The notes beneath the pieces are model-generated. The model did no database searches. It was given only the letters and a program-made list of their open reading frames with translations, and was not told the DNA's origin. Of a stretch of DNA of 64,000 nucleotides, positions 14,022 to 62,986 are shown piece after piece. The position numbers and the translations under genes are program-made. How positions within the stretch are numbered: the stretch's first letter is position 1; each line of letters starts with the position of its first letter. Location of the stretch: contig NC_079875.1 of NCBI RefSeq assembly GCF_029227915.1, positions 28,644,001 through 28,708,000 of the forward strand. The letters are read 5' to 3'. This DNA is from Hydractinia symbiolongicarpus. Its lineage: Eukaryota > Cnidaria > Hydrozoa > Anthoathecata > Hydractiniidae.

Positions 14022-14592
14022 GGTATGTAATGTTTGACTTGGGTTGCCGGAAAAAACTCGGAAGACATAACCCATCCTCTTTTGTCACAACGCTACGTAA
14101 AAATGTAGCTCTTAAGATATGAGCTTATGATATACATATATTGAAACGTTAGACTTTTGAAAGAAATATCGACCTTTATTTTCTATACATGATTTCTGCG
14201 TAACTTCTCTCAATAAACTTGTTTCTATCCAGTTTAAAAATATTTATCAGGATTAAAATTTTCAAGGTGGCTCTCCTGTAAAAAAAAATGGAAAAATGAA
14301 AAAAATGTTTTACCGATACTCAGGTACTTATTATTAAAGTTTCATAGCAACAGCCCTCCCTAGTAACCGGTTGGATGTATTTTCTAGGTCATTTTTGGGT
14401 CTTTTTCCTTCAAAATTTTAAAACACCCATTAGGGGCGTGCTGCAGCTATTTCTCCCTTTTCCCGCGCTAAATTCCATGAGTTAAAACCACATAGTTACT
14501 TTCAAATGCGAGCCTAGTTTTACATTTAGTGTTGAACTGCTGCTGATGATGGAGTCTTACATTGGTATAGAAAAGACCTTTACATTGAAATT

Positions 14593-15392
14593 ATGGGATC
14601 AGGTAAAAGATTTAAATTTGAGAGAGCTAGAAAAAGACGTTACTATGAGAGAAAAAATGTTTCTGGGACAGATTCAAGTGCACAAACACATAAGGAATTG
14701 AACGAAAATCCAGATGAAAATACACAACAACCTGAAGATCCACATTCTAACTATGAATGCAACATACTGATCGACACAGACCTTCTGCTTGGGTTACTCT
14801 ACGTTGTAGCTAAATGCCCTAGCTGCACTTCTGCGATCAAAATTCAGCATGATGTAGAAAAGAAGAAAGGACTTTCGCATGTTCTGTTTCTGAAATGTAA
14901 TAAATGTGATTGGGAAATGAATTTAAAAACTTCCTGTGAAGTATTACAAGAAGACAAAGGGAGAGGTAGGAAGTCATATGAAATCAACTATCGAGCCATT
15001 GTGGTCATATTGCCATGAAAACATTTTGCGCAATAATGAATATGCCACAACCAATGAACTTAGATTCTTTTGAATCCATAAATAAAGAATTACATAATTC
15101 TTATGTTGCCACAGCCAGGAATTCAATGGTTAAAGCTGCAAATGAAATCAGAAAAGAAATGCTGAAAGACAATTTTGATGACAATACAATTGTCAATATA
15201 GAAGCAAGTACGGATGGATCTTGGCAGGGTCGAGGTTATGCATCCTTAAATGGAGTCATGACAGAGATATCACAAGTGTCGACGTTGACGTTCTCTCAAA
15301 ATCTTGTATATCATGCAATGTTTGGGAGAAGAGAAAACAATCTGAGGGGTACGCAAAGCCTATTGTTTGATCCTGAAAGTGATGAAATTTAA
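14593..15392 (+). pseudogene. Mutator-like transposase N-terminal region, frameshifted
   Basis: Frame one (14,593-15,018) holds a basic start, then a Zn-ribbon-like pair, CPSC near residue 74 and CNKC near residue 101. Frame two (15,015-15,392) reads MKTFCAIMNMPQPMNLDSFE, then DGSWQGRGYASLNGV at about residues 70-84. The order Zn ribbon, KTFC-x3-MNMP, DGSWQ-x-RG-x-SLNG is that of an uncharacterised Mutator-type transposase family common in invertebrates; the D of DGSWQ should be the first catalytic acid. One base is lost or gained near 15,005, and the rest of the catalytic domain is missing. A further relic of this family is at 43.2-43.6 kb. Confidence 0.6.
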
Positions 15393-19108: not shown

Positions 19109-20492
19109 TAGTCTTTAAATCTTTCTGGTGGTCTTCTAGTGCGTGTTGATCGTCTCGTTTGGATGACGGGTGTCGGAGGGCAGACGATTGATGGTGGAGT
19201 GTCTGCCTGAGTTGTCTCTTGTTAAGTTGGAATTGTTTCTGGTTGATTGATTGCTGGTAGATCTGTCCCATTAGTACTGGGAAGATGTTCTTCTTTTGTT
19301 TGTCCGAGAATGTCTGAATCGATGATATCGTTGCGTGTTTCGTTTGGTATTGGGCGTAAAAACTGTCTATTACGTAATGTTGTACCACGGCTGCCATCGA
19401 CTACAACACGGTATTGTCGATGGTGTAAACTTTCGCTGATTACCCCGGTCTTTTCCCATCGAAGCGGGGCGTTACCAGTTTGGTTCTGAATGGAAAAGTG
19501 TCTCTAACTTTCAAGACAGGGAGTTGTCGTTGTGATGTCGTGCAAGCATGTTGGTGTCTTCTCGTAAAAGCGTTCTCGCGAATATCGGCTAAGTCAATCC
19601 ATTCTTTCCGGAAACCTCTTGGTGCTGGAAGATGGTCTCTGATGTGGCGTCCAAATAGGAGCTCAGAAGGTGAGACTCCCATGTCTGGTGATGGAGTGTT
19701 TCGGTACAGGAGAAGGGCTTTGGCGACATTATCGGTGTCCAGTGACCCAGATTGACTAATATTGGTCGTTAATATTCGTTTGACAGTCTTAACTGCGGCT
19801 TCTGCTCGTCCGTTGCTTTGGGGGTAGCCGACAGATGATACTCGATGTGAAACGTTCCAAGATCGTAGAAAGTTTTCGAACTCGTGAGATGTAAATGGCG
19901 GACCCCCGTCTGATGACAGTCCTTCGGGGACGCCAAAATTTGTGAAATATCTTCGAAGAATGTTTACAACCGTGGTAGCTGTAGCATCAGGTTTGGTTGA
20001 GGCTACCTCTGGCCAACCGGAGAAGCGATCTGCGTAGACTATATACAGACGCCCTGCCATGTGAAATAGATCGGCAGCTGTCTGTTGGAATGGATAAATC
20101 GGCGGATCGGGGACTTCCGGTGTATCTTTGCGATTTGAGGGAGCGATTTGGTTGCATCGGGTGCATTGACTCCTGTGGTTTTGTATGTGTGAGCTCATTT
20201 GTGGCCAGAAGAATCGTCTTTTTGCATTTTCTCTCATTGCGCTGACGCCTTGGTGTCCGATGTGTAACTCTTCTAGTAGGGTACGTCGAAGAGCGCGTGG
20301 TATCAGGACGCGATCTTCAAGCATAATTAGATTGTCTACACAATATAAGTCATTTTTCAATCTCCAGTAGGGTAAGATATGTTGTGGTAAAGTTTCTTTA
20401 TTTGGTTTCTTTGGTTGGAAATCCCTCGAGAATTGTACGGTGGAGATCTTTGTACTCGGCGTCTTCAGATGCTTTGCGTGAGATGTCCTCAA
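19101..20492 (-). pseudogene. Gypsy pol: integrase
   Basis: The N-terminal zinc-binding domain shows GHQGVSAMRENAKRRFFWP followed by CTRC. The DDE core has D in TAADLF, D in SSDGGPPFTS and E in NGRAEAAVKTV, all three catalytic acids being present. The segment ALLLYRNTPSPDMGVSPSEL is the usual end of the core. The main frame (20,492-19,440) is open for 350 residues. A one-base shift near 19,440 breaks the C-terminal domain (GTTLRNRQFLRPI in the other frame). A second tail frame ends inside the presumed LTR edge. Confidence 0.85.
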
Positions 20493-21640
20493 GGAAACAC
20501 GAGTTGTTTTGGTTGAAACGGAGGTGGATAGAAGCCGAGATAGTAGCCTCGATCTTATCAGAGGTGTTTGACGGTGGTGAAAGCGGTATCCGGGACATGA
20601 TGTTTGCTCCTACGTTTTTCTTGCCCGGGATGTGGATTACTTGGAAGTTATACATTAGAGTCTTTTCTCTGATGTCTAACAGTCTTGGTTTTTTAGCTCG
20701 AACAATTCTCTTTTGTTAAATATTGGTACCAGAGACTCGTGGTCGACGGCGATAATTAGGTTAGGGCATCCCATTACAAACATTCGGCAAGATTGTAAGG
20801 CGAATAGTAAAGCGAGTGCTTCGCCTTCGACTCGTGCATATCCGCTCTCTGCGGGGGATGTGAAGCAAGAACAAGCGTAGCATGTTTTCCAGTAGTTTTC
20901 TCCGCACGTTGGCTCAATCGAAGGACACGAACAATGTTTTTGGAGAAGGGTGAAGCTGATACCAGTCTTGCTCCAGTCGGTCGTGATGCAGGTTTGTCGG
21001 TTTATCTCGAAAGAGCGAACGCCTTCATCGATGCTGTCGAGGATCTTTTGTTTGGATTCTTAAAATACGCGCTCTAACGTCTCATCCCAATAGAATTTTC
21101 CATCATGTTTCAAGAGTTCTCTGAACGGAGTCATGACGGGTGCTTGTGCGAAGGCGTAGGAGACTTGGTTTACTAAGCCGAACCATGATCGAACACCGGT
21201 GATGTTGGTCGGTGATGGAAAGTTTTTAATGCCTTTTAAGATTTTTTGGTTTGGTTTGTAACCATGTGGTGTGATAACAAAACCAGCGAATTCAACGGTG
21301 TCTTTCGCGAATTGAAATTTCTCGGTATTAAACACTATCCCGTTGTTGGCACATAGTGTAATGTAGTTCATTGTGTGCCAAAATGCTGTTGCGATGTCAG
21401 AGTCCCAAAGGATCGAGTCGTCTACACAACGTTGGACACGGGGAAAGTCATTTGTTATATCGTCAAAGTATTTCGTATACCCGTCTCCAGATCCATGGAA
21501 TCCTTGTGGTGCTCGGAGGTAGCGGTATCTGCCCCATTCGGTGATGAATGTCGTTGCTTCTTTTGCGTCGTTGGCTAATGGAACGCTGTGGTATCCGTTC
21601 CAGGCGTCGAGGGTTGTCTTTTTTGGTTTGCGGTGGAACT
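20398..21640 (-). pseudogene. Gypsy pol: reverse transcriptase and RNase H
   Basis: After the frameshift the frame reads TLDAWNGYHSVPL (RT motif A, D present), TEWGRYRYLRAPQGF, and RCVDDSILWDSD, which is the RT catalytic box as VDD instead of the commoner YADD or IDD. The thumb follows (NTEKFQFAKDTVEFAGF). An in-frame TAA lies at 21,060. RNase H follows with TTDWSKTG, VEGEALALLFALQ and AVDHESL, giving its acidic residues, and ends in IHIPGKKNVGANIMSR. The pieces are in correct order but need two frame changes, so the enzyme cannot be made intact. Confidence 0.8.
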
Positions 21641-25639: not shown

Positions 25640-25890
25640 TAGCTACTTAGGTTCAGAAATATGGGTGGAAACCTACCTGCCCTTGGTTAAAGTTCTGTTC
25701 ATCTTTTCAAATGAATTTTTTTTTTTTTTTTTTTATAATTTTTTTAATTAATTCCTTGTAAAAAGGGAGAATTGTGCTTTTAGAGGCATTTACTCTAGAG
25801 GAGTATAACATCTACCTTATTTCCAAAGACCTAACAGGTTGAGATCATCATTGCGGTGGCTTGCCACCTCTTTGTAAATTATTTTCTCTC
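25640..25890 (+). repeat. 3' tail of the endonuclease-USP non-LTR element
   Basis: From TACTTAGGTTCAGAAATATG to GCCACCTCTTTGTAAATTAT this matches the 3' untranslated region at 57,565-57,815. It includes CTTGTAAAAAGGGAGAATTG and GGAGTATAACATCTACCTTA. It is a severely 5'-truncated insertion, the normal product of aborted target-primed reverse transcription. Confidence 0.8.
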
Positions 25891-26394
25891 AGAGAATAGT
25901 TATAGTTCCAAGTTGGGCAGTACTCATGCTTGTAATAAGCAAGAAAGTGTATTCAGCACCTCCTGGGAGCCTAATCCCAATTTTATTTACATCCACCGTC
26001 CCTGTAGACAAAATACTTCAGTGCAGTTTGCTGTATTGTAAACCTTTTTATTTCACGCATACATATCGTTACTGTTATTTGCCCAGGATTACCTATTAAG
26101 GTTCTAATGATACTGTTATCAATGAGGGTCCTATGAAAAGCGTCTAGTACATTTAAAGCATGGTATTCTGGGTTGCCGCCACTGGTTTCCAAGTCTGCCT
26201 TTCTAAGGGGCGGTTTTTTGGTCAGTCCAGCTTTTTTGTTTCCAGGTGTACTGCTTTTCAGTCTTAGTCACAACCTTTCTAAGGGCTGGTTTTCAAGTCT
26301 ACCTTTCTAAGCCCTGGGCTCTGAGTCAGTAGGTATAAGCAACAAAAATATGATTTGTAATTGTCGACTCTTCTTTTTCCAATGTTTAATAAAG

Positions 26395-28770
26395 TTATTG
26401 GTTTTGGCGGATGGTGTCAATGAATATGGCTGGTGTCTTACAGGAGGCAGGGGATGCTTACTCAAGGGGGCCGTGCCAGATCCCAAGCATGAGTAAATTT
26501 CACCAATCCTCATGTTTCCACATTCATAGGTCTTTATTTCAGTTTAGCCGAAATCAATTAGCTTTTCGGTCATCCCTGTAAAGGGGAGAAAACAGAAGTT
26601 TTCCAGTTGCTTCTTAAAAGGCTAGTTATATCTGTATTGCGATGTAATTACTCCTTTTCTCTCTCCCATTAGAGCTATGTAAGGCATGCAAGTACAACAG
26701 TTGCTCAAGATACAATGCTATTCTCCTGCAAAAACGATCAATCTACACTTTTATAGCTTCTGACATGGCTCGGACCGTGCTTAAAGCGAAGACCTTCCGC
26801 ATCGCTCTGTCATGAAGCCCACAGTTGGTTAGATACTTTGGTTAGTTCTATGAAATTAATGCCAGTAATGAAAGGCAGAGCGCAGCTCTTGCATTTTCTT
26901 TATCTAATGTTCCAGAACTTTGGTTAAATCTTCTTAAAGTGGGACTGTTTGGGTTTTTCTCAGATTATCTGTCTGTTGTGCTTAGCCTGTAAGTAGCATC
27001 TGCAAAAAATATTGCTTCCACTTCTTCCAAAAAACTAACAACCTGCCAACTCATTCTGCTTCCTCATCTTTACCTTTATTAAACAAGTAGAACTGCAATA
27101 ATTGTGCTGCTCGTTCCCTTCAAACCAGCATTCATGTCATTCCTGCTGCTTTTTCTGTACTCGATGGAACTTGCCAGACAGTCAAAATTCCGCCAATTGG
27201 ACATGTCATGGCTATCCTTGTGTTCATGTAACACATCTTTACTTTAAAGTGGTTATAACAATGAGCTATTCGCCTCATGTACCTGTCTTACAGCCCTCGA
27301 CACCCCAAACACTTTGTCCTTCTTCCCTTTCAATTGCCAGAAAAATCGAGATGCGATGTGCATGACTTGTCAGTTCGACATATCTTCCCAATACTGTTTT
27401 TTCTACCTGTCTTACAGCCCTCGACACCCCAAACACTTTGTCCTTCTTCCCTTTCAATTTCCAGAAAATCGAGATGCGATGTGCATGACTTGTCAGTTCG
27501 ACATATCTTCCCAATACTGTTGTTTCTAAATTTTGCAACAATTCTGTCCAAAAAAAACAAGATTGTAGTTTTCATGCTCCTCCACTTCAAGTAATGACAG
27601 TGGAACAGACCATTTGTCATTGCAGTGCATTTCTTTTAATGTCTGAAGTAATTTTCCTTAATAACATTAACATCACAATGGCTGCAGCGAGACGAAGGTT
27701 TGTCTTTTTTGTTATCTTGTTTACTTCCATATTTGGAAGAATCATTTGCTGACTGTTCTTTGTTAAACAATACAATGTCTTTTTTTCGAATTGTTGAATC
27801 TTTGGCAATTTCAATGCATACGTTTTTGTTGTTGTGATGTTTCTTTTTAAATGTCTACTCAATTTTTATCTCATTTTCAAACATAATGGGCCTAATCGTT
27901 TGGGCCTTTTTGATTCGCCCTGTTTTCTCTGAAATGAGGGAAAACTGAAAAGAATATTTTAATATTAACACCTTTTTAAAAAAGCATCAGGAAAATTGGG
28001 TTCGTTCCTAATTCTGTGCAGTCATGGCAACAGCCCGCTTGCTTGCATCCAAGTAATCACAGATTTTGGGAGTTCAAAATCTTTTTAAATAAAAGTACTT
28101 ACAGCTAAATGTAAATTTGAAACACCGATATTTTTTCCCTTAACTCTTCGAGTTATTTCTTTCACTTTTTTTATAAATTAGCAAAATTATTTCTTACGAC
28201 GAATATGTAGTCAATTAACAAAAGTGTTGAGAAATATTCTTTTTTACATTATATGCAAATAAGTGTTAATAAGTTACTGGAGCTCAATATTTATATTGAA
28301 AACCTATTTTATATAGAGAACATTATGGCACATACCTTTCAATTTTGGAAATTATTGCACCATTATTTAGAACTGGTTATTGGTCCGTGGAAAAATCTAC
28401 GGGTTCCCTTATCCTGCATTTTGTGTAGTTGGCTACTGCGCTACTATTTTGGGCAGAGACTGTTATTAGATAGAGCTATTATTGGTGGTAATTCTTTAAA
28501 CAACGCAGTTTTGGAAGTGGTCAACTATTATCTTCTTTTGTGGTGTCTATGGTTCTTCTTATTCTTATTCTTTGTTACTAATATATTTTCAAAAAGGACA
28601 AAAAAAGACTGTTTAAAGCGGTAGTAATGTCCACATGTCAGTTTTCTTTTAATTGTTACTTGTAAATCATGGTTTAATTTTTTTTCTTTCTTTACGACCA
28701 TTACTTTCCTAATTATTTTTCCTTAAATTTCATCACTTTCAGGATCAAACAATAGACTTAGTCATGTCAC
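26395..28770 (-). repeat. Inverted repeat arm B (partner at 15,355-17,430)
   Basis: The reverse complement matches arm A from the Mutator-like coding edge (near 28,768) through to the GGAGGCAGGGGATG region near 26,440. The hydrophobic 123-residue plus frame at 28,253-28,624 is antisense to the matching arm and is not a gene. Arm B contains an extra block at about 26.65-27.58 kb that includes a 124-bp tandem duplication. The outermost end of the matching pair coincides with the transposase frame in arm A, so arm B looks like an internally truncated copy of the same element. Confidence 0.7.
27281..27527. repeat. 124-bp tandem duplication
   Basis: 27,281-27,404 and 27,405-27,527 are nearly identical (one deleted A, one T-to-G change near the end). 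Each unit contains ACAGCCCTCGACACCCCAAA and GATGCGATGTGCATGACTTG. The very low divergence makes it one of the youngest local changes in the window. Confidence 0.9.
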
Positions 28771-35800: not shown

Positions 35801-36010
35801 CAACCATATCTAAAAAAAATAATTCACTATTAGTTAGAACTTACTCATCTTGAGTGGTAACACTTTTGTCTTATTCCATCCAACATTGAAAGCTTCTCGC
35901 GGACAACGAACGCAATCGGTCTTTACGTTTGTGGGGTTACGAAGTTTTGGTCTCAGTAAATCAAGACAAAATCGCAGTCTAATATTAGCACCTCTGAGCA
36001 AGTAAGTCCA

Positions 36011-36975
36011 TTTCTTCAACTGTCCTTGACATCGACTGTACAATCTTTAATAGATAACTTTTTGGAGAGCGAAGAATTGTCAGTTGTCAACTCGTACTTC
36101 TGTCACTACTGCAATATTTACCAAACTGCAACAGTTAAAGAAGAGGTCGCAGAGTTCAGTTCAATTTTGGTTCTGCAATTAAAATGCTTTGCCTATAACA
36201 AAGGTCTTGTGTCTAAGGTTAGTTCTCCTGTCACAACTTACCCGAGCACTGTTTCTATACCTATCACCATAGACAGTGAAGTCTCTTGTCGCAAGCACTA
36301 CAACTTAAGGGTTGCAATTAACCACTCAGGAAATTTGAACAATGGCCACTATACACTGTTGCTTATAACCAAATGCATGATAAGTGGTTTTATTGCAACG
36401 ACAGAGCAGTGGTCTCTTGCAAACAAGGCTTGCTAAGTGGTGTACAACCTTACATCCTTTTCCTTGAAAAGCTTAGGTAAATTGCAATCAACATCACAAC
36501 TTCCGGTTTATGTCAGCAAGGGGGTTTGACTATTCTACTCGACTTATTACCCTAGTCAAAAACAAAAAAAAAATAAACAAACAAAGCACAGTCTTATATT
36601 TGGAGAGTGACGACTCCACTTCTTACCCCAGTCACACAAGATTGTCCAGAGTAGGACAGATGAAAAGGTATGGATGAAAGAAATGTCTAGTTCCTGCTGA
36701 AGACTGTTTGCAGACCTCTTTTGTGGTGACTCAACTAGACATTTGGGTACCTTGGTTCAGGAATATGAGTCGAAACCTTTGTACCCTTTACAGAAGTCCT
36801 GTCCTACTCTCTCTGTCTGTTTGTTTGTTCAGTTTTTGTGCTAATCATCTCCTTGGAAAAAGAAAGAATTGTGTTCTTTTATATGAGCATATTCTTTTGA
36901 GGAAACAAAAGAATTTAAGTGTGAAGACTTAACTGGTCGAGTTTATCATTGTGCGCGCCCTTTGTAATTTTCATT
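36011..36975 (+). mobile_element. Endonuclease-USP non-LTR element, copy 2 (5'-truncated)
   Basis: Starts inside the USP domain and runs into the 3' untranslated region shared with 57,290-57,815 (TCAGCAAGGGGGTTTGAC, GTGACGACTCCACTT, GACCTCTTTTGTGGTGAC, TAGACATTTGGGTACCTTGG). The coding part (36,026-36,436) has the Zn-ribbon YFCHYCNIYQTATV, LVLQLKCF, and the histidine box NHSGNLNNGHYTLL. The frame is then lost near 36,360, where the Asn/Asp box (CNDRAV) sits in another frame. Sharing both the USP region and the 3' tail with copy 1 shows the USP domain belongs to the element. Confidence 0.75.
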
Positions 36976-37970: not shown

Positions 37971-38169
37971 ATTAGCATCGATATTTTTTAGTTGTGGAGC
38001 TTCTTGCTGCCTGATTGTGCAGGTTACGTAGAATAATCTAACACCACTATTTATGTTGTGAACTCAACCTTTTTGTCATATATTTACTGTTGTATTTGTT
38101 ATTTCTGACGATTTTATCATTTCCAAGTTCAAAAGCTTGATTCATCAATTGCTTTCATTACTCAACAAT

Positions 38170-38470
38170 CTTGTTTCCTATGTTACAAAGAAATCTGCAC
38201 TTCTGCTCACATTCTTGGTGCTTGTAAAACTGCTTTTTCCCAGGGAAGATATACCTTCAGACACCATTCTGTACTTACCCACTTAGTAGAAACTTTGAAA
38301 AAGTTGATTTTTAAACTTCCTTCTGAACCTTCTAAAAAATGCCACAAAATAACCTTCGAATATGCGTCCACAATTACTAGGAGCATCTTTCCCAAGAAAG
38401 GTCTCTCTCCCACGAATGGATCAGCGCACGGTTTGTCTAAAACAAAATGTTTTGCAATAGTATTTTAAGA
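38170..38470 (+). pseudogene. CCHC knuckle fragment of an endonuclease-type non-LTR element
   Basis: The plus strand reads CFLCYKEICTSAHILGAC (C-x2-C-x8-H-x4-C), then QGRYTFRHHSVLTHLVETL, closely following CILCKKPSSNVSHILGAC and QGRYTYRHDSVLTVLVKIL of the 55.5 kb copy. This CCHC segment normally precedes the restriction-like endonuclease domain, which is not found after it here. A separate, older copy of the same or a sister family. Confidence 0.65.
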
Positions 38471-45103: not shown

Positions 45104-46340
45104 ATGGGAATCCTCTTTACCTCAAATCTCATACACAGGCTGATTTTTATGGCTCTCAGACGCTATGGTGTACCAGAATCCTGGATAGGGCTCATACAGC
45201 TATACTACGACAGCCTGTGGAGTAAGTCTTTTTCGGCTTCTGCTCCATCCAGTTGGCATCAACACTGTAGGGGGATTTTTATCGGCTGTACACTTTCCAT
45301 TATACTATTTCTTGCAGCTATACACGTTATTATTGAATATGTTTTTGTTACTCCCACCCTTATTGATACTGAAGGTAATAAAACAAAATCCCAGACCAAC
45401 CCTCAATAAAAGCTTTTATGGATGATATATTCGTAATGTCCACGTCAATTCCAAGTACTCAAAATTTATTAAACAGGTGTACAACAGCTCTTGATTGGGT
45501 AGGCATGTCGTTTAGGCCTTCTACATCACACAGCATTGTTATTGATAAGGTAAAAGTCGTCCAAAGTTCACCGTTTTACAGTTGGCAGCGAAAAAATTCC
45601 ATCCATTCATTCTAATCCAATTAGGTTTTTAGGCAGAACAATAAACTCATCCTTGTCTGATTCTGCTGCAATACAAGAATTTCTAAATGATGCCGAAGAC
45701 AAACTTATAGCTATAGAAAGGTGCTTTCATAAAGGGGTCCATAAGGTTTGGTTTTTACACCATCTGTTAATTCCCAGAATCCGCTGGCCATTATTAATCT
45801 ATGAAGTTTCTCTATCTACTATCACAAAACTAGAGCAAAGATTTTCTGTTGTCATTAGGAAATGGTTAAAACTACATCATTCAATTTCCAACATTTCCTT
45901 ATATTCCTCGACATCGCCTTGTCCTCTTCCCCTGAAAAGTCTTGCATCTGTTGTCAGATCTGCCAAAATCAGTGGACATCTGTTACAAAGAGATTCTGTC
46001 GACCCTTGTGTGTCAAAGTGCGTACCAGAAGCTGGAAATTGGAAAGTTAGTGATGCAGTTCTTTTGGCGGATAGTCAACTCTATTTCAAAAGGATTTTAG
46101 ATTTGCATCAGACTGGTCGAGCTGGCTAAGGGCTACTAGACCACAAAAATATACCACCAAAAGGCACTTATGCTTACCGAAAGCTTGTTTTCAATATTAT
46201 TGAAGAAAATGAAGAAGATATTTACCATGCCAGAGCTTTACAGTTGCATTTGCAAGGCAATTGGACAAAATGGTGCTCTTTTGTGAAAAATGATTTATCT
46301 TGGAGAACAATTCCTTCACTGCCACAATGTCTAACTTCCT
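45104..46340 (+). pseudogene. Reverse transcriptase fragment of an endonuclease-type non-LTR element
   Basis: Three frames in order. RYGVPESWIGLIQLYYDSLW, then HCRGIFIGCTLSIILFLAAI (RT motifs around the template-binding GxxxGxxLS). FMDDIFVMST follows, the catalytic xDD box as MDD. Then the thumb: HKVWFLHHLLIPRIRWPLL, YEVSLSTITKLEQRFSVVIR and KWLKLHHSI. After LPQCLTSF the similarity stops abruptly at about 46,340, where the first exon region of the orphan gene begins. In style this RT is the kind that accompanies the CCHC and restriction-like endonuclease found at 55.5 kb, so it may be the missing front half of that family. Stops show it is dead. Confidence 0.65.
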
Positions 46341-46412
46341 TTTGTAGATTATGCGGTATAGTTACGTGTGTCATTGCTGGCAAAAACACATTTGTTTCAA
46401 TTTTGTTCAAAG

Positions 46413-54049: not shown

Positions 54050-55126
54050 TTGTGTTTACTATGGTACAAAGAATATTGAAATGCACAATTTAATAACTTT
54101 AACAACAAAAATGATTACTTACAAAATATATACCACATGATTTAATTTCAGTTATTTTTTTAAGTTTTTTTATACAATTTTTCAAACAAATATGCACGCC
54201 TAAATTTACTCTTGAGTAAATTTAACCATAACAAATGATTAGTTAGGGAAATATAATCAAGCGTTTAAATTTTGCTTTTGAGTAATATCAGGAGTGCAGT
54301 AAAAATTAATTACAAAAGAAGTACTTATTCATTGTTAATAAGAAAGAATATTTTATTAAAGGAAAGCGGAACATTTTTAAAAATGATGTAAAGCCAAAAT
54401 TTTTAAATCAATAAAATTGGTTGACAAAAATTTTTACCACAAATTGCTATTATAGAACAAACGATAAATAGAAACCTATAAATCTGTTTCCATATTCTAA
54501 AGTAAAAAATAATTACTTAGCTAGAATATAATTACACCGTTAAATGTACTGATAAGTGATATTACCAGGGAAGTAAATGTTTAATTACAAAAATAAGTAC
54601 TTCTTTTTTGTTAAAGAGAAAAAAGTGGTTTAATAAATGTACGGTGGAAAATTTTTCAAAAAATATAAAACCAAAATTTTTGAAATTTTTTAAACCGCAA
54701 GATTATTAAATAAATAAAATTGATTGAAAAAGCATTTGTTACGCGTATTAGTATTATATTCCTCCTCCACACTTAAATGATAGTAGAAGTTTTCTTCTAA
54801 GTAATACTAACCGTGAAGTGAAAAATAAACACAAATTACAGTAATAGGTACACATTTTTTGTTGAATGGAACAATAATTTAAGTACAGTTAAAAGTTTAC
54901 ATACAACAGGTGACACTTAGTACTTCGCTGATTGTAATACAACACCGTGCTGTGACAAAAAACAAGAAGTTACAGACCATCGCAGTTGCAAACTTTCCTA
55001 ATACCGTGCTGTGATAAAAAAGAAGTAACAGACCATCGTACTTGTAGATTTTCCTACAGTAACAGCTGACACACTGTGTGTCACCAGCTGCCACACAATA
55101 CCGACGGGTTTCCCGTGGATCACACA
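54050..55126. other. AT-rich sequence, then a 60-bp direct repeat
   Basis: The first 800 bases are A/T-rich without coding signs and may contain the Helitron 5' region. At about 54,941-55,060 a block with ACCGTGCTGTGA, AAAAAA, GAAGT-ACAGACCATCG and TTTTCCTA is present twice. GTAACAG words begin here and continue into the next repeat. Confidence 0.45.
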
Positions 55127-55532
55127 CAGTTACAATGTATCAGACAGTAACAGCCCACGCAACGTGTGTCAGCAGCCGTGCCACAATACCGTATGGTGTC
55201 ACGTCGCGTCAGTGACATGCTTACCTTCACTGACAGCTGACGCTTACATCTGTCTTGCGTCGAAAGCTGTTACAAGGTCACCCAAAGTAACAGGTGCCGC
55301 CTGTCACCATGTAGCTGCCCGTCGTTTCGCAGTTACAATGTATCAGACAGTAACAGCCCACGCAACGTGTGTCAGCAGCCGTGCCACAATACCGTATGGT
55401 GTCACGTCGCATCAGTGACATGCTTACCTTCACTGACAGCTGACGCTTACATCTGTCTTGCGTCGAAAGCTGTTACAAGGTCACCCAAAGTAACAGGTGC
55501 CGCCTATCACCATGTAGCTGCCCGTCGTTTCG
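55127..55532 (+). repeat. 203-bp tandem duplication, GC-richer than surroundings
   Basis: 55,127-55,329 and 55,330-55,532 are nearly identical (for example GTCGCGTCAG against GTCGCATCAG and GCCTGTCACC against GCCTATCACC). Each unit holds TATCAGACAGTAACAGCCCA and TTGCGTCGAAAGCTGTTACA. Because 203 is not a multiple of three, the same peptide appears in two frames (MCQQPCHNTVW at 55,164 and 55,367). The second copy reads straight into the retrotransposon frame at 55,533. Confidence 0.92.
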
Positions 55533-57285
55533 CAGTCAAGCCTGGGGCGGGTCTGGCGGGGTACGGTCGCGATGGAAGTTGCATTCTGTGCAAGAAACCA
55601 TCCTCAAATGTCTCTCACATATTGGGTGCCTGTAGGACCTCTCTTTTGCAGGGTAGATACACATACCGGCATGACTCGGTTTTAACAGTTTTGGTTAAGA
55701 TATTAAAAGAGTTTTTGGTATCATATGAACCTCTTAGGGTTTCCAAGTGCAACAAAATTAATTTCATTCCGGCCGGTCAATCACCATCTAAGAAGAGGCA
55801 TACAAAGTGTCCAGGCCTTCTTCACCTTGCTTCCGATTAGAAAATACTGTCAGATTTAGATTCCGTTTTAGTTGTTCAACCTTACACTGCAATAACGCAA
55901 CTACGCCCAGACGTGTTATTAATATCCAGTTTTTCCAAAACTGTAATTATGGTAGAACTGACTTGTCCATGGGAAGAGAACACGGAATATTGGCACAAAC
56001 GAAATCTTAAAAAATATTCTTTACTTTGTTATGCTATGAAAAACAATGGATGGATCGTGCATTTCTTTGCCATTGAAGTGGGTACAAAGGGTTTCTGTTC
56101 AGAATCAGTAAGGACCTGTTTTCGTCGCTTTGGTTTCCCTAACAAGCCTTTACGTTCCCTATTAAAATTCCTAACTTTTACCTCCATGAGTGCCTCTTTT
56201 TACATCTGGATGTCTCGAAATTCTACCACTTGGGTTGAGCCTGAAAAGGCCCCAATCATTCCTGTAGTTTCTGTCACAAATATGGAATGTAAGAAATCAA
56301 AAGACCCTGAGAAATCTTCCGCAAGTCACACAAAATCGTGTAAAATCAAAAAACTTGAAAAACGTGCTACAAGGTCTCCCAAAACAACAGTCGCATTGCC
56401 ATCTAACCCTGATTTTAGGAATAGCGGTCTAAAAATCTGGGGAAACACATGTTATGCAAACTCAATCTTACAATGTTTTTATAACCTTCCAAAAGTTAAA
56501 GAAGCTATTTCTGTCAGCAAAACAACCTCAAAGTTAGGCGAAGCATTTGTAGGTGTTCTTCAAAGTTTGGCTATTTCCAGAAGTCCAGTTGATCCCTCCC
56601 ATTTTTTGCGTGCTATGAAACATCATATCTCAGCTGCGAAGGGAAGTGCATTTAATATCTTTGCTCAGCACGACATCCCCGAGGTTCTTGAATATCTCCT
56701 ACCTGGTCTGTCATTAGACTTTCCATTTCTTGGAAGTCTTTTTAGTATTGGCATCAAGACATCTACCACTTGCAATTCATGTCATATTACGAGCTCCTCA
56801 GAAGTTATAGCACCATGCATCCAAATTTCTCTGCACCCTACGCTACAATCTTCCTTAGATAATTTCTTTGAAAGCGAGGAGTTGTCAGACACCAATGCCT
56901 ACTTCTGCCATGTTTGCAACGCTCAACAAACTGCTCTAGTTGAAAAAGAGTTAATGTCGTGCGGTTCCCATTTCATTTTACCGCTAAAACGTTTTGCCAG
57001 TGCCAACGGCCTTGTGTCAAAATTGCCTTTCGTATTACTGCTTACCCTGGTACCCTTTCCATACCTTTTACCGTAGATGGAGAAGTGAAATTTCGTAAAA
57101 ATTTTCAATTAAGGGCTATTATCAACCATTGCGGCAACTTAAATGATGGTCACTACACAACCACAGCCTTCGATCAAATGGTTCACAGGTGGATACATTG
57201 CAATGATAGAGCAGTAATTTTCTATGATGACCGCCTTATTAACAGTCACGAGTCATATGTTTTCTTTTTAGAAGAGCTGAGATAA
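55533..57285 (+). pseudogene. CCHC - restriction-like endonuclease - USP polyprotein
   Basis: Knuckle CILCKKPSSNVSHILGAC (C-x2-C-x8-H-x4-C), then QGRYTYRHDSVL. After one in-frame TAG (55,838-55,840) comes the endonuclease: RPDVLL (Asp), VELTCPWEEN (Glu), then KRNLKKYSLLC (Lys/Tyr), as in R2/R4/NeSL-type target-nicking nucleases. A basic linker (KKLEKRATRSPK) leads to the USP domain: Cys box GNTCYANSILQCF, QHDIPEVLEYL, zinc pairs CNSC and CHVC, HFILPLKRF. After a one-base frameshift near 57,020 come the His box NHCGNLNDGHYTT and CNDRAV, then ESYVFFLEEL. All three catalytic positions (Cys, His, Asn/Asp) and four zinc cysteines are present. The domain should cleave ubiquitin from conjugates. Its benefit to the element is unknown; protection of its proteins from degradation is one guess. 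Confidence 0.75.
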
Positions 57286-57815
57286 GAATATTTTAACCAG
57301 AATGAGTCAGCAAGGGGGCTTGACTACACTCAGTCTTGTCTTTGGAGAGTGGCGACTCCACTTATTACCCCAGTCAAAAATAAAACAAAATCAAATAAAA
57401 ATTAAGTTAGCAAGGGGTTTGATCACACATGATCTTGTCTTTGGAGGGTAAGAGTAGCACGGTTGAACAGAAAGTGGTCAAAGTTTACTTTAGGAAGATA
57501 GGGATGTCTAGTTTCTGCTGATGACCGTCCGCGGACCTCTTCGAGGTGACCCAGCTAGACATCCAAGGTACTTAGGTTCAGAAATATGGGTCGAAACCTA
57601 CCTGGCCTGGGTTTAAGTTCTCTTCATCTTTTTAAATGTGTTGTGTCCTTTTAATTTTTTTACATATTTTTTAATTAATTCCTTGCAAAAAGGGAGAATT
57701 GTGTTTTTAGAGGCATTTTCTCTAGAGGAGTACAACCTCTAGCTTATTTCCAAAGACCTAACAGATTGAGTTCATCATTGCGGTGGCTTGCCACCTCTTT
57801 GTAAATTATTTTCTT
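55533..57815 (+). mobile_element. Endonuclease-USP non-LTR retrotransposon, copy 1 (5'-truncated)
   Basis: A 3' half of a non-LTR element: CCHC knuckle, restriction-like endonuclease, USP deubiquitinase, then a 3' untranslated region of about 530 bases ending near GTAAATTATTTTCTTAAC. The 3' region holds TCAGCAAGGGG...TTTGA twice and CTCTAGAGGAGTACAACCTC. Parts recur at 25,640-25,890 and 36,011-36,975, and a CCHC piece at 38,170, showing a dispersed family. The reverse transcriptase is missing here; a related RT fragment is at 45.1-46.3 kb. Confidence 0.8.
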
Positions 57816-58357
57816 AACATTTTATTGTTCTCAAAATGTTGTTAGAAATAAATCCTGGCATAGTACGCCATCCTACATTTTTAATGTTAAAAAATACTGT
57901 CATACAAAGTCGTTAGCAATTAAAAAGTCCTGTTTGGGATAGGAGAGCGTGATATAAAGAACATAATGACCATTTCAAAAAAAAGTATGTGAAACAACTT
58001 CTTTAGAAGACAACTCTGTTAATGCTGGTAAAAATATAATGGTACGCAACGCTTCATTTATATTTAAAAAAAGAAATTGTGCGCAAAGTAAATGACAATA
58101 TGACATGTCAATGAAACCTTCTTAAGTCATTCAAAAATTGGCAGGTGCACTAAAAAGAATAGAAAAAAGAAATTGCAGCTTAAAGGAGATGACGATGGTG
58201 ACCACTTTACAATTCTAATCACACAGATACCATCACAATGATCGTGTAGTAATAAGTCATGATGAAGCCTCTCTAAAAATTAAGTAAATTCGCATTGTTC
58301 GTCGTACCATGCTTACCCTGCACATTTTGTTTGTATTATGACTGCTTTTCCATTTAG
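57816..58357. other. Unassigned AT-rich sequence
   Basis: No feature recognised until the splice acceptor at 58,357. Confidence 0.4.
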
Positions 58358-58561
58358 AAGGAGCCAGAATTGACATGGGAAAATTTTAAAGAGAGTGTGT
58401 TATTGTCGAAGGATAAGGGTGGCTACGCTTACCGCGAGAACTTTGAGTTGTGGCGTGCTGCTGGGGGGAAAGGCCTTTTCACCCAGGAGGACGCCATAAA
58501 TGCCCAGAAGCGTAGGCACCCATATTCTTCGGCAAGTCGAGCCACAAAAGGAGATAATTGA
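58358..58561 (+). CDS. Putative terminal coding exon of an unrecognised gene
   Basis: A good acceptor (TTTTCCATTTAG) is followed at once by an open frame reading KEPELTWENFKESVLLSKDK, then YAYRENFELWRAAGGKGLFT and a Lys/Arg/Ser-rich end (QKRRHPYSSASRATKGDN) before TGA. The composition (three Trp/Tyr-rich segments, GGKGLF) is strongly coding-like, with no frame damage. AATAAA near 58,760 could serve as polyadenylation signal. I do not recognise the family. Upstream exons were not found in the window; they would have to lie beyond the retrotransposon to the left. A captured exon within a transposon is the alternative. Confidence 0.45.
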   Translation, partial: KEPELTWENFKESVLLSKDKGGYAYRENFELWRAAGGKGLFTQEDAINAQKRRHPYSSASRATKGDN

Positions 58562-58953
58562 ATCTTCTAAAAAATTACTTACTTATCTTTTTTCTTTAAT
58601 TTGGCTGGTCTACCGAAAATTTAGATTTTTATTTCATTGTCCTATTTTTACAATCTGCTTTAACAAAAAAATCGAGACGGAAATTTATCTCCTATGTGGT
58701 CAATTCCAATTAAATTTATTACCAAGAATAACTCTCAAATATTTTGTTGATTTGACTCTCAATAAACACCACTGGCATTGCGACGACTAATGAGTCACAA
58801 AACTTCCACTTCGACGGCACGTGGCATGGCGTATGCGTCAGCAGCTGTCAAATATGGCAAAGTAACACATTTATTTGGTCCCCATTTTCTTTTACCCTGG
58901 ACTGGATATTGTTAAAGTGTATTGGAAGTATCAGTGTCACGTACATTAGCAGC

Positions 58954-60036
58954 ATGGAAAATTTAACTAATACACCAATTGTAGAATTCATTGATACACC
59001 ACTTCGTAAAATTAGCTCGACTTCAGATATTCCTATAATTCTTGAAAGAAATGGAGTTAAAGAAAGTGATGAATCGTTTATAGACCGCATGTATTCAAAC
59101 ATCAACTTACAAAAAATGAAAGGTGAGCTAATACACGATCTTAAAAACTACCTTGATGAATGTGTTAAAAATGTTGCTCTGTCAAACCGTCACGTTTCTA
59201 CCGAATGGGATAGTAATAAAATGTTTAGTGTGTTGGAGGAAAGGATTTTATTTTTGGAAAAGGAAGTAAATGCCAAAAATGAAATGATACAAATGTTATT
59301 AGCGACGAAATCATCAACGCGTGACGACATACTACATAACTCTCATAGCTTCAACAAATTAAAATCTTGCGAAACAAACGAGAATTTTACAATTCCCAAG
59401 GACACCGTTAAGGCAAAAATCATTAAACAGAGTTCCTTTATTCACGCAAATCGCTTTGAAAACTTGCCCATTGAAGAAATAATGGATGATGTAAATAGTG
59501 TTGCCAACGAAGTGCCGCATAAAACGCCGCGAAGGAGATCTGACAAAAAATCTAAAGTTACGCAAATAATTGGAGACTCGATTGTAAAAGAAGTGAAGGG
59601 CTGGAAACTTTCTTCAAACGAGAACAAGATTATAGTGAAATCCTTCTCTGGAGCCACGACTAAATGCATGGAAAGTTACGCAATACCAACTACGAACATG
59701 TCTCCCGATAACATTATTATTCATTGTGGCACTAACGATCTTAATAGAATCGAAACCGATCAAATTGCTCAAAACATAGTAAAATGGGCTATTAAATTGA
59801 AATCTGGTGAAAATAATGTAATGATATCGGGCATAATTCAACGAAAAGACAGACTAAATAAAAAGGTGATGGCAGTCAACAAATCTCTCGCTCATCTTTG
59901 CGAACAAAGAAACATCGGCTTTATCAATAATGATAATATAAACCCCGACTTGCATTTGAATAGAAGTCGCCTTCACCTAAATATGAAAGGGACTTCAATA
60001 TTGTCTCGGAACTTTCTACAGGTGATTGAGGATTGA
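58954..60036 (+). CDS. LINE ORF1 protein with coiled coil and GDSL/SGNH esterase domain
   Basis: 360 residues if started at the ATG at 58,954, preferred over an earlier frame start because MENLTNTPIVEF begins the charged N-terminal part. A short coiled coil (SVLEERILFLEKEVNAKNEM, about residues 92-111) could allow self-association. A basic linker (TPRRRSDKKSK) leads to the esterase-like domain: block I IGDSIVKEV (catalytic Ser near 208), FSGATT, block III HCGTNDLN (near 257-264), and a C-terminal DLHLNRSRLHLNMKG with the Asp/His pair. Such domains occur in CR1 ORF1 proteins and are thought to act on lipids or membranes; the protein would also bind LINE RNA. The frame is intact. Confidence 0.85.
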   Translation: MENLTNTPIVEFIDTPLRKISSTSDIPIILERNGVKESDESFIDRMYSNINLQKMKGELIHDLKNYLDECVKNVALSNRHVSTEWDSNKMFSVLEERILFLEKEVNAKNEMIQMLLATKSSTRDDILHNSHSFNKLKSCETNENFTIPKDTVKAKIIKQSSFIHANRFENLPIEEIMDDVNSVANEVPHKTPRRRSDKKSKVTQIIGDSIVKEVKGWKLSSNENKIIVKSFSGATTKCMESYAIPTTNMSPDNIIIHCGTNDLNRIETDQIAQNIVKWAIKLKSGENNVMISGIIQRKDRLNKKVMAVNKSLAHLCEQRNIGFINNDNINPDLHLNRSRLHLNMKGTSILSRNFLQVIED

Positions 60037-60135
60037 CACAAAAAACCTGTCGAAATTTACGACACAGATCCACCGAACACTGCCTCAGATACTTTTGATT
60101 CAACATATGATATTTTCACTCTACGTCGCAGTAAC

Positions 60136-62986
60136 ATGTGTAACTTGATAGTCGGTCATTTGAACGTAAACTCGTTGCGAAACAAGTTCGAAGCAATTGA
60201 TTTAACTTTCAAGCACAATATTGATGTTCTGCTTCTAACTGAAACGAAAATAGATGAATCGTTCACTGATGCTCAATTTAAGTTAGATAATTACGCAATT
60301 CTGAGGAAAGATAGAAATGGACATGGTGGCGGTATTTTACTCTATATAAATGAAAATATTCCCTTCAAAGTGTTGCGAAAATATACTTTACCGGATGATA
60401 TCGAAGTTTTAGTTGTCGAAATAAATCTTCGAAAACGCAAATGGCTTTTAATCGGTGCATATAAACCACCGTTACAAAAAAATTACTACTTTTTAACTCA
60501 AATCGCAAATGTATTGATTTCACATCTCAACTATCACGAAAACATCATAATTATGGGTGATTTAAACATGGAAATAAGTGACACAGATTTCGATAACTTC
60601 ATTTCAACATACAACCTCCATAGACTAATCAAATCACCAACCTGCTTTAAGTCAAGTACTTCGCCTTCTTGCATTGATCACATATTAACAAATCAACCAA
60701 ATTTCTTTAAAAATAGTGTAACAATCGAAACTGGCATATCAGATTGGCATTTATTTGTTGGAAGTGTGATGAGAATGAACGTGATTAAAGGCGACCCAAT
60801 TGTGAAACACTACAGAAATTACAACAAAATTGACTACTTTGATTTTGAAAGAACATTATCAATGAACTTTTTGAAATTACTTGAGAACAATTACGACTTT
60901 AACCAATCCAATTTATGCATCACGTCTACGCTAAACCATTTTGCACCATTGAAAAAGAAAATACTAAGATTCAATAACGCACCTTTTATCACCAAGGAGC
61001 TTCGCAAAGCTATTATGCACAGATCCAAACTTCGTCGCATATATAACAAATCACGATCAAAAGAAAATTGGTCCAACTTCACTAGACAGAGAAACTACTG
61101 TGTTTCCTTATTACGAAAAACCAGACGTTCGTATTTCAAGGGTTTACGTATGACAAGCATTACTGATAATAAAAAGTTCTGGAAGTCTGTCAAGCCATTG
61201 TTTTCAAACGTTAGTTATAACACCAACAAAATTATCTTAATCGAGAAAGAAAAGATAGTCACCGACGAACAAAAATTATGCAAAATCTTCAATGAATATT
61301 ACACCAACATCACGAAAAATTTACCAATCAAACCAAACGATGATACACATACAGCAACCATTCACGATGCAATCCACTCGTATACTAATCACATCAGTAT
61401 TTTGAAAATTCGTGAAAATGTGGGTTATGATGAAAAGTTCTATTTTTCGCTGGTTGAACAGCCTGATGTTCTCAAAGTCATCAAAGACATGGATGCAAAG
61501 AAATCTTCTGTTAGTGGTGATTTTCCAGTTTTTATGTTGAAAAAGTTTATTCATATCTTTGTTCCTATCCTCACTAATATTATAAATTTTTGTTTACAGT
61601 CTAATATTTTTCCTGATGATTTAAAACTTGCAGAGGTTATACCTGTTTTTAAGAAGGATGACTGTAATGATAAGGAGAACTATAGACCTGTTAGCTTGCT
61701 TCCCTGTTTATCAAAGGTTTTTGAAAGAATTATTCTTAATCAAATGCACACTTTTATGCATGACAAACTCAGCCCTCATCTATCAGGCTTCAGAAAGGGT
61801 TATAATACACAATATGCTCTCATTCGAATGATTGAACAATGGAAAAGCACACTTGATAATAAGGGTGTAGTTGGAGCAGTGCTAATGGACCTTTCAAAAG
61901 CTTTTGATACTATCAACCATGATTTGCTTATTGCAAAGCTGCATGCCTATGGTTTTTCTGAATCTTCTTTATTATTTATTCACTCATACTTGAAAAATCG
62001 TTTTCAGAGAACCAGAATAAATTCTTCTTTTAGCGAATGGCTTCCTCTTCAAGTTGGAGTTCCACAAGGATCAATCTTAGGACCTCCTTTCTTCAATTAT
62101 TCTATAAACGATTTATTCTGGTTCATTATTCAATCATCCCTTTGTAACTTTGCAGATGATAACACCTTATATGCTTGTGAAAATTCATTAGAAGATGTAA
62201 AACAAACACTGCTTACTAATTTGGTCATAGTTAATAATTGGTTTTATGAAAATTACTTAGCAATAAATTTGAAAAAGTATCAATATATTGTATTAGGTCA
62301 TCACGATGAAAGTTTGATATTTAACCATTTGAAAATTGCGTGTAAATCGTCTAGTGCTTCTTGGTGTTACGATTGACTCGAGACTAAACTTTCATTCGCA
62401 TGTCAAAAACATCTGTAATAAGGCTAGTAGGAAACTCAACGTGCTTCAAAGGATATCTTCCTTTTTGACACCCAAGATGAAGCGTTTTCTCTTCAATTCA
62501 TTTATTTTGTCTCAGTTTTCTTACTGTCCCTTAGTATGGATGTTTTGTGGAAAAGTTGCGAATAATCGAATCAATCGTATTCATGAACGTTGTCTAAGAA
62601 TCATACAGGACGATATAAATGGCAGTTACGATGAACTTTTATCTTTATGTAATGTTAAAAATATTCACATCATCAATTTACAGAATTTAATGAAAGAGGT
62701 TTACAAATTTTTAAATGGATTGTCACCTCTATATATGAACGAGATATTTTCTGTTAGGGAAAACAAGTACAACCTTCGTTGCTTTAATTTGATCAGGCGA
62801 CCAACTTGTCGGACAACGTACTATGGCTTAAATACTTTATCAAATATTGCAGGGAAGCTATGGATATCTGTGCCTGACGCTACAAAGAATGCTCCTTCTC
62901 TCGAAGCCTTCCGTAGCTCAATAAAATTTTGGGAAGGTGATGTTTGCACCTGTAAAATATGCATGGATATACCATACATATTTTAA
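60136..62986 (+). pseudogene. LINE ORF2: AP endonuclease and reverse transcriptase, one frameshift
   Basis: The 746-residue frame (60,136-62,376) opens with the APE nuclease: HLNVNSLRNK (8-17), LLTETKID (33-40), MGDLNMEIS (140-148), SCIDHILTN and SDWHLF (202-207; SDH with an inserted Trp). The RT follows with NYRPVSLLPCLSKVFERII (515-533), MDLSKAFDTINHDLL (584-598), GVPQGSILGPPFFN (641-654) and NFADDNTLYA (671-680), the catalytic FADD intact. A one-base shift near 62,345 moves into the frame of 62,336-62,986 (LLGVTIDSRLNFHSHV, FSYCPLVWMFCG, INRIHERCLRII, PSLEAFRSSIKFW), the normal LINE C-terminus. APE nicks the target and RT copies RNA from the nick. The break should inactivate this copy. Confidence 0.85.

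Follow-up and report, generated by a model that had tools for sequence, protein, structure and literature searches.

A retrotransposon copy with a C-terminal ubiquitin-specific protease

The 64,000 nucleotides of the Hydractinia symbiolongicarpus genome analyzed here (the window; C1:28644001-28708000) contain a dead, 5'-truncated copy of a retrotransposon without long terminal repeats (non-LTR), which encodes a ubiquitin-specific protease (USP) behind a restriction-like endonuclease (RLE). The copy belongs to an element family designated A. It is composed of the following features, given in window coordinates:

55127..55532, + strand: two 203-bp tandem repeats directly 5' of the element, also found at a duplicate at C1:29624059 (L032)
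55559..57818, + strand: 5'-truncated dead family A copy with CCHC, RLE, USP and 3' untranslated region
55580..55633, + strand: CCHC zinc knuckle (CILCKKPSSNVSHILGAC)
55838..55840, + strand: in-frame TAG interrupting the frame
55841..56190, + strand: remains of the RLE with RPD (codons at 55904-55912), ELT and K..KY motifs
56420..57285, + strand: USP domain (Pfam UCH) with CxxC pairs, stop codon at 57283-57285
56450-56452, 57151-57153 and 57205-57207, + strand: catalytic Cys, His and Asp codons of the USP
57286..57818, + strand: 3' untranslated region, terminating in CACCTCTTTGTAAATTATTTTCTTA without poly(A)

Homology to the element begins near 55559, and the 3' end of family A was placed at about 57812-57818 as judged from other copies. 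The reading frame extends over 55241-55840 to the TAG, continues in the same frame over 55841-57076 (411 aa) and, after a frameshift near 57020 that lies between 56986 and 57055, over 56944-57285. Pfam UCH (PF00443) matches both pieces on either side of the shift (E 1.1e-13 and 6.2e-9). A sequence-only reading of the locus had described CCHC, RLE and USP in a single frame with one TAG and one frameshift and had predicted a match to a peptidase C19-type model; both statements were confirmed by the frame and Pfam readings. Window positions 54341-58573 are identical to C1:26816184-26820416, 1.9 Mb away, over all 4233 bp compared, which reflects either a recent segmental duplication or a duplicate in the assembly. 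Several segmental duplicates of the window copy exist and, thus, do not constitute independent evidence.

The protease is an integral part of the element

The genome (480.9 Mb, 76 contigs) was searched with the RLE and USP regions combined, resulting in 107 matches (1288 candidates, 101 scored). Seventy-four of these run from the RLE into the USP, 24 begin inside and three stop just inside the USP, while each of the remaining six, which stop before the USP, adjoins a separate USP match. Since this query is biased toward USP-bearing loci, the search was repeated with the RLE alone (158 matches; 809 candidates, 150 scored), and the 60 best listed matches reaching at least query residue 225 of 252 were examined. 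A USP match follows in 47 cases, five matches run just into the USP and eight had no USP match entered; seven of these eight loci were read, of which five carry a USP and two lack one within about 1.4 kb. The USP is therefore carried by at least 52 of the 60 best RLE-only matches, a minimum because the tally used part of the USP-match rows and the omitted rows could only hide a USP. Other copies thus do not generally end at the endonuclease, as would be expected of a local fusion. In a comparison with L055 and L057, two USPs taken as host genes, the element USP was distant from both.

A genome-wide UCH search yielded 150 matches (1015 candidates, 149 scored), ten of them inside open frames of 1345-1426 codons. 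Among these long-frame loci L043 and L044 were read whole and L049-L051 partly. L043 and L044 each contain an uninterrupted frame of 1426 codons with AFMDD, CCHC, RLE (KPD...ELT), Cys box, GHY and CND motifs, i.e. the single open reading frame across reverse transcriptase (RT), CCHC, endonuclease and USP that the sequence-only reading had proposed to look for. Together with the RLE tally, this indicates that the USP belongs to the element. In family A the same order is found in pieces: L031 is open over 1029 codons from RT through CCHC to RLE, with the USP in the same frame after stops and its Cys box hit by a small deletion, and L033 is open over 667 codons from CCHC to USP.

Element families in Hydractinia

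By their sequences the elements are RLE-type, R2-like non-LTR retrotransposons with RT, CCHC and RLE in one protein. At least four, probably five, families can be distinguished in Hydractinia by sequence identity, and each of them retains the USP. Family A includes the window copy and L033. Family B (L034 and L035) shares 51-53% amino acid identity with A in the USP. L043, L044 and L050 form family C. Family D (L049, L051, L052 and L054; 96.6-98.7% amino acid identity to L054) is 45-46% identical to C in the USP, and its copy L051 reads GNIC and DHY at the active-site motifs, with Cys and His retained. The USP of the putative family E (L053) is 44% identical to that of C, and when L053 is compared with D across residues 361-770 of L054, identity is about 50%. 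Long interspersed nuclear elements (LINEs) are reported to make up 4% of each Hydractinia genome (PMC11067881), and a share of 0.18% is given for R2/R4/NeSL (PMC10411563).

Family A matches appear clustered, e.g. at C1 24-32 Mb, C4 22-26 Mb and C10 1.6 Mb, and these clusters are perhaps heterochromatin. Four family A pieces with equal scores form a regular 2437-bp array (C1:27241521, 27243958, 27246395 and 27248832).

Conservation and structure in related proteins

A protein search with RLE and USP, in which scoring was confined to the 8000 candidates with the most words in common with the query, yielded 215 proteins (120 listed), and a search with RT and RLE yielded 143 (120 listed). Many of the listed matches are public proteins, mostly from ENA, of 827-1759 aa that contain both RVT_1 and UCH. 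USP-less relatives, fish and sea urchin proteins among them, mostly terminate 109-135 residues after the RPD motif. In an alignment of 56 USP-bearing proteins, which were selected for having UCH, all four CCHC ligands, the RLE residues P, D, E, K and Y and the Cys, His and Asp of the USP are invariant (56/56), and the oxyanion Asn is present in 55/56. Across the 215 proteins (P0002-P0216) 138 USP domain matches were recorded; 101 of these cover the stretch from Cys to Asp, and the full triad is present in 100. Apart from RVT_1, Pfam detects UCH at the C-terminus (E 3.3e-36 in P0122). In scans of three proteins with UCH (P0122, P0174 and P0183), neither the Ulp1 family nor a ubiquitin-like domain was found at E 0.01.

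R2 chains are the best PDB matches both by sequence and by fold, and the predicted model of a relative aligns to R2 over residues 5-851, through the end of the RLE. The USP is predicted to adopt the USP fold with two CxxC pairs in a compact domain of about 290 residues and matches USP8, USP2, USP12/46 and USP15 best by sequence. RLE and USP are connected by a linker of 31-144 residues in 55/56 aligned proteins, which is predicted to be disordered.

A search for a cellular donor with the P0122 USP, covering proteins of similar whole length, returned eight matches, all of them element proteins, and so pointed to no donor. No relative was present among 21 pattern matches in IMG/VR, a plasmid search gave no match and no relevant family was found in NCBIfam. 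Two USP-element proteins are filed under the name of a bacterial metagenome-assembled genome, which is taken as contamination. P0072 and P0002 are element frames filed as host genes in public records; P0072 is labelled 'ubiquitin carboxyl-terminal hydrolase 51-like', with RLE motifs preceding its USP.

Phylogeny of the USP-bearing elements

When 88 RT and RLE sequences were trimmed before the USP, the USP-bearing rows grouped together. In a tree of 75 rows, from which 13 rows had been removed as near-copies, fragments or unclear and to which only rows longer than 640 residues were admitted, one branch (support 100/99) comprises 49 rows, of which 46 possess a USP and three are unclear. Two of the latter, P0054 and P0145, stop early, and P0095 ends 106 residues after RPD; P0095 and P0186 show no UCH by Pfam and both were labelled unclear. 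That the USP arose strictly once along the RT tree was rejected in an approximately unbiased (AU) test (p 5e-6), for which the group had been defined after a first tree was seen. In a quick USP tree, P0113, P0183, P0174 and P0098 group together (94) beside 40 of 41 'main' rows (87); P0147 stands outside, P0104 with a host USP, P0105 alone and P0116 inside, on long branches. The history of the domain is compatible either with one gain and later losses or with several gains.

Selection on the protease

Between families A and B (L033 and L035), the proportions of synonymous (pS) and non-synonymous (pN) differences are 0.809 and 0.284 in the USP, 0.719 and 0.249 in the RLE and 0.840 and 0.478 in the linker. 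Between families C and A they are 0.841 and 0.506 in the USP. Neutral simulations at a mean pS of 0.764 gave a pN of 0.704 on average and never below 0.667 (40 runs). The pN between families is far under this expectation, so the USP is constrained, and between A and B the constraint is about equal to that on the RLE and stronger than that on the linker.

Selection and residue counts within family A omit L004, L006, L023 and the window copy as segmental duplicates. Among 26 copies the dN/dS ratio (omega) in the USP is 0.88 for singleton changes and 0.60 for shared changes (17 synonymous, 29 non-synonymous and one nonsense). The corresponding values are 0.92 and 1.96 in the RLE, the latter from few changes (4 synonymous, 23 non-synonymous), and 0.58 and 0.31 in the CCHC stretch. 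The family B pair L034/L035 shows an omega of 0.40 in the USP (127 codons) and 0.73 in part of the RLE, and family D contains too few changes for an estimate within the family. Catalytic Cys, His and Asp are present in 23/25, 22/24 and 23/25 family A copies, compared to an average of 0.931 over USP columns. The expectation that dN/dS falls below one across the USP hence holds between families; within them values are mostly near 1, with a mixed picture for the B pair. The earlier argument that catalytic residues kept in a dead copy reveal selection was not borne out by itself, given a singleton omega of 0.88 and a triad no better preserved than the average column, although its conclusion does apply between families.

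Insertion and mobility

Copies are 5'-truncated and have the 3' end in common. No shared target was seen by eye downstream of 27 family A 3' junctions, which speaks against insertion at the 28S rRNA site of R2 proper; three of the 27 continue into other USP-element pieces (L033, L027 and the second L024; by eye). With no shared insertion site seen at these junctions, the elements differ from R2 (Bombyx R2Bm, Taeniopygia R2Tg), from which they are also distinguished by the C-terminal USP and by the lack of an N-terminal zinc-finger motif in all 22 testable main-clade proteins. A C2H2/C2HC-like motif was found in none of these 22 USP proteins with a long N-terminus, in 8 of 20 USP-less proteins and in both deep USP proteins tested. 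Loss of the N-terminal zinc finger would fit a lost site specificity, the relation being a correlation.

Family C was recently mobile. Over 5783 bp, identity between L043 and L044 reaches 99.69%, which implies that the insertions are recent. These copies and their flanks form head-to-tail loci (C7:18996700-19006800 and C11:27107900-27118500) with a unit of 5367-5368 bp, and in all three joints read, at two loci, the 3' end GTAAACCTTTTTCATC exactly abuts the 5' start TTATTGTTGACC. On C7, 480-bp identical direct repeats flank one full family C copy, an arrangement that resembles the pseudo-LTRs known from Penelope-like elements. The 3' end of the element was unremarkable in its RNA structure (z -0.30).

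Comparison with known elements and proteases

Dualen/RandI elements are non-LTR retrotransposons with an OTU protease and a dual endonuclease; they share a deubiquitinase-type domain with the elements described here, but theirs has the OTU fold. NeSL and Utopia-1_TSP of nematodes are described as RLE-type non-LTR elements that likewise harbor a cysteine protease for ubiquitin-like modifiers, which in their case is Ulp1-like and N-terminal, whereas the present one is a USP and C-terminal (PMC4640811). Cysteine proteases of the ubiquitin pathway are also described for Ginger1 (OTU and Ulp1), Helitrons (OTU) and a Trichomonas transposase_11 protein (peptidase C19), all of which are DNA transposons without reverse transcriptase, and roles of the ubiquitin pathway in transposition have been suggested in the same account (PMC2836005). 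Cellular USP2, USP8, USP12/46, USP15 and USP36 share fold, triad and CxxC pairs with the element USP, which is only about 25% identical to them, is compact and is encoded by a retrotransposon. What appears to be new is thus the type of protease (USP, peptidase C19) in a known kind of place. Searches of 5.39 million open-access papers listed no report of a USP in a non-LTR element, Repbase, Dfam and subscription journals lying outside this scope.

Proposed function of the protease

We propose that an R2-like retrotransposon acquired a complete USP-type deubiquitinase at its C-terminus, attached by a flexible linker. Homology and fold suggest that the element protein replicates like R2, through target-primed reverse transcription of its own RNA. 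The tethered USP could strip ubiquitin in trans from proteins met by the ribonucleoprotein (RNP). The protein and RNP of the element itself are the most likely first targets, with chromatin or repair proteins in second place, and removal of ubiquitin may allow the element to escape ubiquitin-dependent turnover or restriction. Because the USP is tethered, is predicted to share fold and active site with working deubiquitinases and lacks a processing-like site in the linker, an active deubiquitinase acting in trans is favored. That the domain is catalytically active is very probable, and its target is presumably ubiquitin rather than another modifier. The complete reading, with the element RNP as first substrate, is the one we consider somewhat better than even, while self-protection as the specific role is somewhat less likely than not.

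Some observations weigh against this interpretation. Family B copy L035 reads GYY where GHY is expected, and P0017 has a Tyr in place of the catalytic His. Omega within families is mostly near 1, and the picture there is mostly one of decay. P0174 and the pair P0113/P0183 possess a USP but are placed among USP-less lines, a tree that forces all 49 USP rows together is worse by 103 log units (AU p 5e-6), and some relatives manage without the domain. Finally, no observation made here separates self-protection from an action on chromatin or repair proteins.

The most serious alternative, which we regard as possible and clearly less likely, is that the USP acts at the target site. There it might deubiquitinate histones or proteins of the DNA-damage response and replication and thereby unblock nicking and target-primed synthesis. 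The fusion of the USP beside the endonuclease would suit this role, SAGA Ubp8 and USP1 occur among the fold and sequence matches, and a proposal from 2010 has Ulp1 and OTU domains in transposons acting on DNA repair factors (PMC2836005). The best PDB matches by sequence, however, indicate general kinship and no specific one to chromatin-acting USPs. A maturation protease cutting the polyprotein is improbable. ULP- and OTU-type domains elsewhere are suspected of processing, and the predicted disorder of the linker would fit such a role, but USPs cleave behind ubiquitin and the Pfam scans revealed no ubiquitin-like domain; moreover, the linker contains GG in 5/56 and RGG in 0/56 proteins, and its best column has one residue in 27/56. 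Even less likely is a USP that binds ubiquitin without cleaving it; some dead cellular USPs exist, but the almost invariant triad and oxyanion Asn argue against such a state here. A local fusion with a host USP, a chance join or an assembly artefact was rejected and is hardly conceivable: the window copy does lie within segmental duplications, but the genome holds four or more such families, their insertions occupy different places, and public proteins of other origin show the same architecture.

If an active tethered deubiquitinase is indeed encoded, a broader and rather doubtful picture would be that of a widespread, still mobile lineage of RLE-type LINEs for whose replication protein this activity is obligatory. 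Around the time of the gain, this lineage would have given up the zinc finger that reads the target at the N-terminus, and the USP, acting on chromatin, repair proteins or the RNP, would have taken over from site choice as the means of coexisting with the host. The lineage would also form head-to-tail copies with exact joints. The replication protein of a LINE is a small toolkit, and an added domain may indicate what the host makes difficult. The conservation of a deubiquitinase across dozens of element lineages would point to ubiquitin as an obstacle that target-primed retrotransposition has to overcome, and the conserved active site suggests that the elements interfere with the ubiquitin system of the cell. 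The idea of such an obstacle is testable in Hydractinia, a stem-cell model with one family that was apparently recently active. For annotation, the element frames filed as host genes are a warning.

Further element fragments and neighboring features

The window contains additional pieces of USP elements, two of which (at 45134 and 38160) were overlooked by the sequence-only reading:

45134..46346, + strand: family A RT and thumb fragment, 94.5% nucleotide identity to L031
35981..36903 (about), + strand: family B fragment with C-terminal USP (35981-36477; Pfam UCH E 1.8e-8) and 3' untranslated region
38160..38372, + strand: family C fragment around the CCHC knuckle, 91% nucleotide identity to L043
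25644..25889 (about), + strand: family A 3' untranslated region only
25884..26049, + strand: family C terminal piece, 94% nucleotide identity to L043 316-484

The second copy claimed at 36,011-36,975 has a genuine USP end and tail but is not of the same family as the window copy, as its two pieces show 83% and 78% identity to family B versus 56% and 44% to family A. The tail-only copy reported at 25,640-25,890 is real and belongs to family A.

A separate, largely open LINE, presumably CR1/L2-like from its appearance, occupies 58756-62986 (+); the first of its frames has a weak GDSL esterase match (under the Pfam cut-off) and the second contains Exo_endo_phos and RVT_1. LTR-retrotransposon-like remains with integrase H2C2, rve and RVT_1 are located at 19440-21638 (-), and a Mutator-like transposase piece (PF20700) at 14536-15018 (+). 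Outside the window, two COX1 matches with in-frame TGA, one of which was translated with TGA as Trp, occur near the chromosome start at C2:9924-11264 and 25766-27106; they represent either insertions of mitochondrial DNA or a scaffold end to which mitochondrial sequence was attached.
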